Notes under the pieces: model-generated
Seen by the model: only the letters and a program-made list of their open reading frames with translations
The model's database searches: none
What the model was told of the DNA's origin: nothing
In this document: positions 1 to 1,448 of the stretch, in pieces
How the letters are laid out: each line of letters opens with the position of its first letter
How positions within the stretch are numbered: the stretch's first letter is position 1
Made by a program: the position numbers and the translations under genes
Origin: Candidatus Bipolaricaulota bacterium
GTDB taxonomy: Bacteria > Bipolaricaulota > Bipolaricaulia > Bipolaricaulales > Bipolaricaulaceae
Direction: 5' to 3'
Assembly: GCA_938083225.1 (NCBI GenBank)
Contig: CALKCH010000017.1
Coordinates: 1-41,177 of the forward strand
DNA: 41,177 nucleotides

Positions 1-1001
1 GCATAGATCTCCAGGCCTTGGAGGATTTCGGCGCTCACCACAGGGTGGGTCTTCATGATCTTCCACTCCTCCTCGGTGAGCGGGCCAGGTTTGAGGAGGA
101 TGGCGTCGGGGATGGCGATTTTTCCGAGGTCATGTATGCGGGCTGCGGTTTCGATCCTTTCCACGTCCTCTTGTGGTAGCCTTAGGGCGCGAGCCAGCCT
201 CACCGCGAGCTCTGCCACTTCTTCGGAGTGCACCCCCGTATAAGGGTCGCGTGCGCTCACGATTTGCGTGATTTTTTCGAACGCTCTTTTCGCTTGCTCG
301 CGGAGTTTCACGTGTTCTTTCAAAGATATTTGGACAACGAATAGTGGAATGAGGGTGAGCACCGAGTAGAAAGGAGAGAGTTTGTGGACGATGGCAATGA
401 GTATGGCGAGGAAACCCAGGGAGGTGGCCTGAACAATCTGAAGACGGAAACCTGCCCAGAAATGAGGCCAAAACTTGATGTTCTCCGCGAAATGCACCGC
501 TCCTGAAACGAGCAACAAATTTACGGTCAAATAAACAACGAACGTCAAGAGCGCCCGAACAAAGTCTAAAAAAGTCCAGGATAAAGTGGGCGGACCGGAG
601 GTTACCACATACAAGGAACTGGCAAAGGATATAGCGAGAATCAGTTGAGCTACGTTAAACGTCACGACTGCAAAATATCGCTTCAGAGAGATCGACAAAA
701 TTTTTCTTCGCAGCCATAGCTCAGCGAAAAGAGTGGAAGTGAGGATCACCAAGGTGGCAAGCTGGGGACCGCCGATCAACGCTGTTGCAATCGTCACGCT
801 GATACCTGCAGTAAAAGCGTGGCCTCGAATAAGCACGATCTCGAAAAGCTCGCAAAGAAGGTTGAGGGCCGCAAGTATAAGCCAAGTTTGTAAAAAAACA
901 AGGTCAACCTTAACGGTCCAAACTTGGTAACACGCTATAGCTACTCCAGCGGCAATAACAAACCCTAAGTACAGGCGAAGTTTTATAGGCCAGCCTGTCA
1001 C
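1..1001 (-). CDS. Membrane-bound HD/HD-GYP domain signalling protein (partial, C-terminus beyond window)
   Basis: The reverse-strand frame is open from a GTG at 1001 to the window edge. The first ~235 residues form about six or seven hydrophobic segments with short loops. A cytoplasmic domain follows, with the RDPYTGVHS stretch typical of HD-GYP proteins and the metal-binding motif HDLGK (plus strand about 121-150). HD-GYP proteins hydrolyse cyclic di-GMP; the GYP motif itself would lie outside the window, so a plain HD phosphohydrolase is not excluded. The start is uncertain: no Shine-Dalgarno is visible and a terminator hairpin ends just upstream. The membrane half looks more AT-rich than its neighbours. 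Confidence 0.8.
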   Translation of the reverse strand, partial: MTGWPIKLRLYLGFVIAAGVAIACYQVWTVKVDLVFLQTWLILAALNLLCELFEIVLIRGHAFTAGISVTIATALIGGPQLATLVILTSTLFAELWLRRKILSISLKRYFAVVTFNVAQLILAISFASSLYVVTSGPPTLSWTFLDFVRALLTFVVYLTVNLLLVSGAVHFAENIKFWPHFWAGFRLQIVQATSLGFLAILIAIVHKLSPFYSVLTLIPLFVVQISLKEHVKLREQAKRAFEKITQIVSARDPYTGVHSEEVAELAVRLARALRLPQEDVERIETAARIHDLGKIAIPDAILLKPGPLTEEEWKIMKTHPVVSAEILQGLEIY

Positions 1002-1013
1002 AAAAGGCGATTT

Positions 1014-1047
1014 TCAAGAAAAAACCAACAGGCGAAACGCCTGTTGG
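1014..1047 (-). terminator. Intrinsic terminator after the 43-aa ORF
   Basis: On the minus strand a perfect 10-bp stem, CCAACAGGCG with loop TTT and CGCCTGTTGG, is followed by TTTTTTC. It lies about 35 nt after the stop of the small ORF at 1082-1213 and ends about 13 nt before the GTG of the HD protein. It is therefore either a terminator for the small gene or an attenuator ahead of the HD gene. Confidence 0.85.
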
Positions 1048-1081: not shown

Positions 1082-1213
1082 TTATCCTGTCCACTTGTTA
1101 TTTGCCCCCGCAAGCAGGAGCAAGCTGATAAGAGCCATCAATACAGGGAGCCACCGCAAACCGAAAGCCTTCGTCCGCCCCTTCACCTTCTCCATCACCG
1201 GAACCCACTTCAT
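1082..1213 (-). CDS. Small single-pass membrane protein, 43 aa
   Basis: An ATG at 1213 opens a 43-codon frame. A strong Shine-Dalgarno (AAAGGAGG) lies 8 nt upstream; a second in-frame ATG at 1219 is too close to it. The peptide has a basic N-terminal half (MKWVPVMEKVKGRTK) followed by a hydrophobic helix (LPVLMALISLLLLAGA) and a short polar tail. A near-consensus promoter lies upstream and an intrinsic terminator downstream, so it forms a complete monocistronic unit. I recognise no family; the function is unknown. It could be a membrane regulator of the adjacent HD protein or a stress peptide, but nothing in the sequence decides this. Confidence 0.65.
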   Translation of the reverse strand: MKWVPVMEKVKGRTKAFGLRWLPVLMALISLLLLAGANNKWTG

Positions 1214-1298
1214 CCTCATCCCCTCCTTTTTAATTTAGTCAAACTCTACCTTCGCCACACTATGGCTCTCCTCAAGAGCTCTTCTGGGCGACACCTAA

Positions 1299-1327
1299 AA
1301 TATACACCCATCGACCAGAGTTGTCAA
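1299..1327 (-). promoter_or_regulatory. Sigma-70-type promoter for the 43-aa ORF
   Basis: On the minus strand TTGACA (1327-1322), a 17-bp spacer and TATATT (1304-1299) form a near-consensus promoter. Predicted transcription starts near 1292, giving a leader of about 78 nt that contains the palindrome AAGAGCTCTT before the Shine-Dalgarno. Confidence 0.8.
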
Positions 1328-1448
1328 CACTGGAAAGAGGGACATTCTTCCCGTTTCGCGTATAAACCAGTGCCCAAGCGAAAAACCATCTTTCCCGAGG
1401 TCGCCCTTGCACCCCGAGAGCTCTGCCTGAGCCAAGCCCAAAACGAAA

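Follow-up and report, generated by a model that had tools for sequence, protein, structure and literature searches.

A family of small membrane peptide genes linked to a MASE9-like HD-GYP gene in the Bipolaricaulota: a candidate ligand or subunit of a membrane HD-GYP receptor

Among described systems, those closest to the locus analysed here are MgrB with its membrane sensor PhoQ, the Gram-positive pheromone pairs SHP-Rgg, cCF10-PrgX and AgrD-AgrC, and the RpfC-RpfG/DSF system. The gene for MgrB is present as a single copy and is unlinked to phoPQ. DSF is a fatty acid, and it acts via a histidine kinase and a response regulator. To our knowledge, few HD-GYP sensor domains have an identified ligand, and we know of no gene-encoded peptide that acts directly on such a sensor. 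In a search of open-licence papers, nothing was found on DUF5317, on MASE9 or on a peptide partner of HD-GYP proteins.

The window (i.e. the whole stretch of 41,177 nt that was analysed) derives from a genome of Candidatus Bipolaricaulota (Acetothermia). It contains the gene of a small peptide, followed by an HD-GYP gene. The peptide shares with MgrB a length of about 45 aa, a single helix for which an N-in/C-out orientation is expected and an apparent functional tie to one membrane sensor. It differs in that it gave no sequence match to MgrB (Pfam), occurs in tandem arrays in relatives and has as its partner a predicted c-di-GMP phosphodiesterase, not a kinase. As in the pheromone pairs, a short hydrophobic precursor gene lies beside a putative receptor gene, and the C-terminal end, which appears to be the functional one, is a conserved and type-specific tail that differs between species. 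In contrast to those pairs, whose partners are of the Rgg/PrgX/AgrB/AgrC type, the receptor here would be a one-component HD-GYP enzyme, and processing is hypothetical. The proposal made below has in common with RpfC-RpfG/DSF that an extracellular signal would control an HD-GYP phosphodiesterase, whereas here a single protein comprises both sensor and HD-GYP domain, and the candidate signal is encoded by a gene. By analogy, the mode of action may resemble that of a peptide-receptor pair or of MgrB-PhoQ; the peptide itself belongs to no family tested.

The peptide gene and its signals

The following features were identified, all on the minus strand:

1339..1352, minus: inverted repeat GGGAAGAATGTCCC, a candidate operator, 12 nt 5′ of the -35 hexamer
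1299..1327, minus: sigma-70-type promoter TTGACA-17-TATATT, 11/12 consensus matches
1214..1292, minus: 5′ leader of ~79 nt, with the ribosome site AAGGAGG at 1228-1222, from the sequence
1082..1213, minus: 43-codon peptide gene, MKWVPVMEKVKGRTKAFGLRWLPVLMALISLLLLAGANNKWTG, from the frame, its homologues and dN/dS
1085..1105, minus: C-terminal tail ANNKWTG, the invariant part among tandem copies in relatives
1019..1047, minus: intrinsic terminator, a perfect 10-bp stem plus six T
1..1001, minus: MASE9-like membrane sensor and start of the HD-GYP domain, with a GTG start at 1001, running off the contig end

An earlier, sequence-only reading had proposed a promoter, leader, ribosome site, 43-codon frame and terminator, and every one of these elements was found, at 1327-1025 of the minus strand; the span that it assigned to the unit, 1082-1327, omits the terminator and the invariant upstream inverted repeat at 1352-1339. 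The promoter is the sole promoter-like match in 4 kb of the minus strand. Its -35 hexamer (TTGACA) lies at 1327-1322 and, after a 17-nt spacer, its -10 hexamer (TATATT) at 1304-1299, with transcription predicted to start at about 1292 on that strand. The AAGGAGG sequence ends 8 nt 5′ of the ATG at 1213. The promoter hexamers, their spacing, the ribosome site and the frame are all preserved in six genomes of the genus; TTGAC(A) and GGTGTATA-TTTT are kept in these relatives, and AAAGGAGGG in the leader is unchanged across them.

Two further structures were observed in this region. An inverted repeat surrounds the -10 hexamer in the window (1320-1275) and in relatives G003 and G007 (CTGGGCGA ... 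TCGCCCAG in G003). The leader contains a further short hairpin, GCCA..TGGC as against GCCG..CGGC in G004, in which the pairing changes look compensated.

The upstream repeat GGGAARAATGTCCC is unchanged in six aligned genomes of the genus, and an exact-site search over eight genomes of the genus revealed a single copy in each of seven. A stress or growth regulator may use it as its operator; a genome-wide regulon is ruled out by the single exact site in each genome. In six of the genomes the site precedes the peptide gene, and in G002 (C53:5574-5587) it precedes a sigma-70-like gene whose promoter is laid out similarly.

At the other end of the unit, the hairpin CCAACAGGCG-TTT-CGCCTGTTGG at 1047-1025 is followed by TTTTTT. 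In a strict scan, terminator-like hairpins were found in 18 of 59 homologous gaps, as compared with 19 of 1180 shuffles. A terminator as a class-wide feature is ruled out by the first of these counts.

The frame occupies 1213-1082 of the minus strand (43 codons, then TAA). An upstream in-frame ATG at 1219 would yield 45 aa; it is not kept in relatives, so 43 aa is the correct length, and in G006 and G007 the ATG of MKW is the sole fitting start. The dN/dS of the frame, determined over 20 independent pairs, was 0.21. No homologue has a disrupted frame, and 97 distinct members were found as open frames when their loci were fetched. Judged by these comparisons, the tiny frame is a protein gene under purifying selection. 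The same two observations rule out a small RNA, for which Rfam gave no match at the gathering threshold. A frame disrupted in relatives over a conserved RNA, named in the sequence-only reading as the finding that would count against a peptide, is not what was observed. That reading had also considered the complete unit to be more than a product of chance, and this is borne out by the six-genome conservation of its elements, the 97 open-frame members and the low dN/dS.

The peptide family and its linkage to the HD-GYP gene

A search with the single sequence revealed homologues in most of the genus and farther. A profile built from 19 members was then run on 100 genomes of the class; it matched 67 of them, and 31 of the 38 that are most complete. 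The consensus of the family consists of M[KR]W (kept in 86/97 members), a K/R-rich stretch of variable length, a hydrophobic helix, a small residue, A/E/S, two variable residues and an invariant KW, after which come 1 to 8 residues rich in G, P, H and R. Counted from the K of this KW, position K-4 is G, A, S or T in 94 of 94 members, and K-6 is mostly L, which gives an L-x-small pattern ahead of the tail. Position K-3 is A, E or S and never C, i.e. the lipobox cysteine of the cCF10 type is absent. The net charge is +2.8 for the N-part and +0.9 for the tail. A divergent member, present in two copies in G068 (L222), has the tail AASFKLG, with KL in place of KW.

No family match to the peptide was obtained in Pfam, NCBIfam, PHROGs or PADLOC, nor did it match the curated pheromone precursors of NCBIfam and Pfam (AgrD, SHP, ComX and the like). 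The description of a 43-residue membrane peptide with one helix, from a family not recognized, is upheld with respect to these libraries. As no curated-library family matches, annotation is likely to miss these small genes.

Outside the phylum, members were recognized by context, at loci retrieved via DUF5317; these loci lie on MAG contigs, which may be mislabelled taxonomically. These relatives include MKWQGYDEKAADRVNKVVAKVVGSRAFYTIVALASLAMILAASFKWRG and MKWQGYNEKAAERVTDAITKVFGTRSFYTIVALATLAVVLAATVKWSG from Spirochaetaceae/Spirochaetales MAGs and MRWRILGFLTTIAVLLLASGAFHKWD from one Bacillota MAG; MKWNITRIAYALLSIASIIAAAAANARWENVRWG, from a Chloroflexi MAG, is probably a member, more doubtful than the others. 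A locus labelled Thermotoga (L123) has coordinates that match the Bipolaricaulota locus of G036, and one labelled Atribacteria (L116) carries the gene order of the Bipolaricaulota class.

The HD-GYP gene is cut where the contig ends. Another contig of this genome, C60, overlaps the left end of the window exactly over 141 bp, as if the assembly graph had been broken there; the presumed join would give a 418-aa protein, followed by DUF5317. The protein so completed carries HDLGK and RHEHEHWDGTGYP. In Pfam searches with the gene or its orthologues, HD_5 and DUF5317 were significant, and MASE9 reached E = 3.7e-4 and 20.9 bits, against a cut-off of 24.3, in one orthologue and gave no match in another. 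The downstream genes appear to belong, with MASE9 below its cut-off, to the MASE9-HD-GYP proteins with DUF5317. The HD_5 domain has the HDxGK and HxHExx[DN]GxGYP metal-binding motifs that define an HD-GYP protein; HDxGK was present in 53 of 53 HD proteins, and the HxHE/GYP motif in those that were read out. From these motifs, the product is expected to be a c-di-GMP phosphodiesterase. GGDEF proteins occur in 97 of the 100 genomes, so c-di-GMP signalling is present in the class.

It is apparent that the peptide gene is closely associated with this gene. Of the 42 informative loci that were retrieved with the peptide as the only query, 41 have a MASE9-like HD-GYP gene next downstream, in the same direction. 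When all informative loci are considered, it is directly downstream in 61 of 62, with a median gap of 88 nt; in the sole exception it lies 1.05 kb downstream. Although several HD_5 genes per genome are common in the class, it is the MASE9-like HD-GYP gene that the peptide adjoins. A link to the adjoining HD protein, suggested earlier from the window, is strongly supported by this synteny and by the co-variation described below. The earlier term 'self-contained' holds for the peptide gene as a transcription unit, but not in evolution: the gene stays with the HD-GYP gene, and it commonly occurs in tandem with further copies of itself.

DUF5317 comes after HD-GYP in 30 of 39 loci with enough sequence, and where it does not adjoin, those genomes that were compared encode a DUF5317 at another site. 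Over the 100 genomes, 66 have both peptide and DUF5317, 17 neither, 16 DUF5317 only and one the peptide only (Fisher p = 2.6e-9, uncorrected for phylogeny). Eleven DUF5317-only loci were examined; ten had too little DNA upstream of HD-GYP, and the other was that of G068, with its divergent two-copy peptide. Two Peptococcaceae loci (L124, L130), which count against the reading favoured below, have HD-GYP then DUF5317 with no visible peptide gene. In both, these genes are directly divergent from dnaK/clpB-like chaperone genes.

Constraint on the C-terminal tail and its co-variation with the sensor

Two to five profile matches each, commonly in tandem arrays, were observed in 27 of the 67 positive genomes, a few of these counts including pieces of masked or broken copies. 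The array period is about 150-200 nt, and several contigs break at the array, as is usual for repeats. Copies within arrays were compared for the tail, taken from three residues before KW through the end, and for the rest of the peptide. The tail was 96.3% identical, with 109 of 125 codon differences synonymous (87%), as against 74.4% identity and 43% synonymous differences in the rest. Pairs drawn from the same array are interdependent, and copies of very recent origin contribute little to these values; the contrast is nonetheless large, and it is visible in arrays with clearly diverged bodies (L064, L065, L066, L108 and L113). Tails differ between species, e.g. ANNKWTG, AYDKWAG, ASVKWHG, ESIKWRPGGR, ENIKWRPDPPTGG and others. 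On the evidence of these codon comparisons, locus-specific purifying selection acts on the tail. One locus (L059, G061:C26) has two peptide genes 7.9 kb apart, with the tails ANHKWC and AHWKWC, which are possibly diverged types within one genome.

For 53 paired loci, tail, sensor-domain and catalytic-domain distances were compared by partial Mantel analysis. Tail distance followed sensor distance at constant catalytic distance (r = 0.26, p = 0.001), and did not follow catalytic distance at constant sensor distance (r = -0.004, p = 0.53). The distance of the hydrophobic core, i.e. the helix, likewise followed the sensor (partial r = 0.30, p = 0.001). The Spearman/partial Mantel procedure is liberal under shared ancestry, and the sensor evolves faster than the catalytic domain (35% vs 57% mean identity); these results do not, of course, prove an interaction, but they lend support to one. 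Column-by-column mutual information revealed no clear contact site.

In an AlphaFold model of the sensor (pLDDT 87), the most coherent weak matches were to S components of ECF transporters (FolT, ThiT, BioY and RibU), with a best probability of 0.91 and E values of about 0.6-2, which are individually non-significant. Such S components bind ligands from outside, and the predicted likeness would fit a ligand-binding membrane domain.

Mode of action and alternatives

Taken together, coding selection, the fixed linkage to HD-GYP, the constraint on the tail and the co-variation of tail and sensor form the basis of the reading that we favour and regard as reasonably probable, namely that the peptide is a dedicated ligand or subunit of the neighbouring HD-GYP receptor and that its outward-facing tail sets the c-di-GMP level. 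The strong promoter of its own would yield peptide in excess, as copy number would in relatives, and the terminator would limit read-through into the receptor gene. The peptide would insert in the presumed N-in/C-out topology, so that the short tail AxxKWx.. would lie on the outer side of the membrane. The multi-pass sensor domain of the receptor would perceive this tail, presumably through direct binding, whether a protease has set it free, if cleavage occurs, or it is still anchored; the phosphodiesterase domain would then alter the c-di-GMP level, whichever the direction of the effect.

A wider proposal, offered more tentatively and as somewhat short of an even prospect, is that of a species-typed, gene-encoded peptide read directly by a one-component membrane HD-GYP phosphodiesterase. 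The module of peptide array, MASE9-like HD-GYP and DUF5317, which would pass a peptide signal on to c-di-GMP, would be retained throughout the Bipolaricaulota, with further representatives in the Spirochaetes, Bacillota and Chloroflexi. It would also be the first ligand system described for such sensors. With its fixed place beside one receptor over a whole, little-cultured phylum, the peptide family offers a concrete candidate ligand and a testable receptor pair, possibly the first peptide signalling system in the Bipolaricaulota.

How the peptide would act on its receptor can be envisaged in two ways. As a special case of the favoured reading, and one that we consider possible but less likely than not, it would be a secreted pheromone: the hydrophobic part would be a signal sequence, cleavage would follow the conserved small residue, and the released xxKWx peptide of 5-14 residues would report population density to the HD-GYP receptor. 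The L-x-small pattern resembles a signal-peptidase site, pheromone types typically show a tail that is invariant within a species and varied between species, and tandem copies would increase the dose. Conservation of M[KR]W would, however, be unusual for a mere signal peptide, there is no Cys for signal peptidase II, and signal peptidase I accepts L at -3 poorly. In 16 members an E at K-3 rules out cleavage following that residue, and DUF5317, the candidate dedicated protease, failed the LspA comparison (below). Alternatively, the peptide may stay in the membrane intact, binding the sensor helices as MgrB does those of PhoQ, or serve as a stoichiometric subunit, a possibility that we rate about equally. 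The Trp and Lys residues at both helix ends (MKW...KW) are typical anchors of membrane-spanning helices, both ends of the peptide are conserved, and the correlation of the hydrophobic core with the sensor is in accord; by itself, however, this alternative leaves the constraint on the outer tail within arrays unexplained.

Readings in which the HD-GYP protein does not receive the peptide fare less well. The order of short frame, terminator and regulated gene, together with the conserved C-terminal residues, would suit a regulatory leader or ribosome-arrest peptide, translation of which controls terminator read-through into the HD-GYP gene. We consider this improbable, given the scarcity of terminators in the homologous gaps, up to five tandem copies with a ribosome site on each, the variable distance from KW to the stop codon and the co-variation of the tail with the sensor protein. 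A type I toxin or other membrane-damaging peptide (bacteriocin or holin), to which small size, hydrophobicity, tandem copies and an own promoter and terminator might point, is more improbable still. The gene is kept vertically at one locus with one partner across the class, the libraries noted above (PHROGs, PADLOC, Pfam and NCBIfam) gave no match, and length and charge are unremarkable for lysis. No antisense promoter-like site was seen on the opposite strand near the gene, where a weak promoter could be present. The toxicity raised in the sequence-only reading finds nothing in its favour among the present observations.

The notion that DUF5317 processes the peptide is speculation. It arose from the motif order NxGxMP, LGD, FSxGD in DUF5317 and from the Cys-less, lipobox-like L-x-small site of the peptide. 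An LspA-like protease is not supported: hhalign against Peptidase_A8 gave a probability of 8%, no LspA was among the Foldseek matches, and the catalytic Asp of GNxxDR is absent. The predicted fold (pLDDT 91) had no match in the PDB, and DUF5317 could be an enzyme of an unknown membrane fold. In its alignment, N93, N100, G102, D146, S161, G163 and D164 are invariant.
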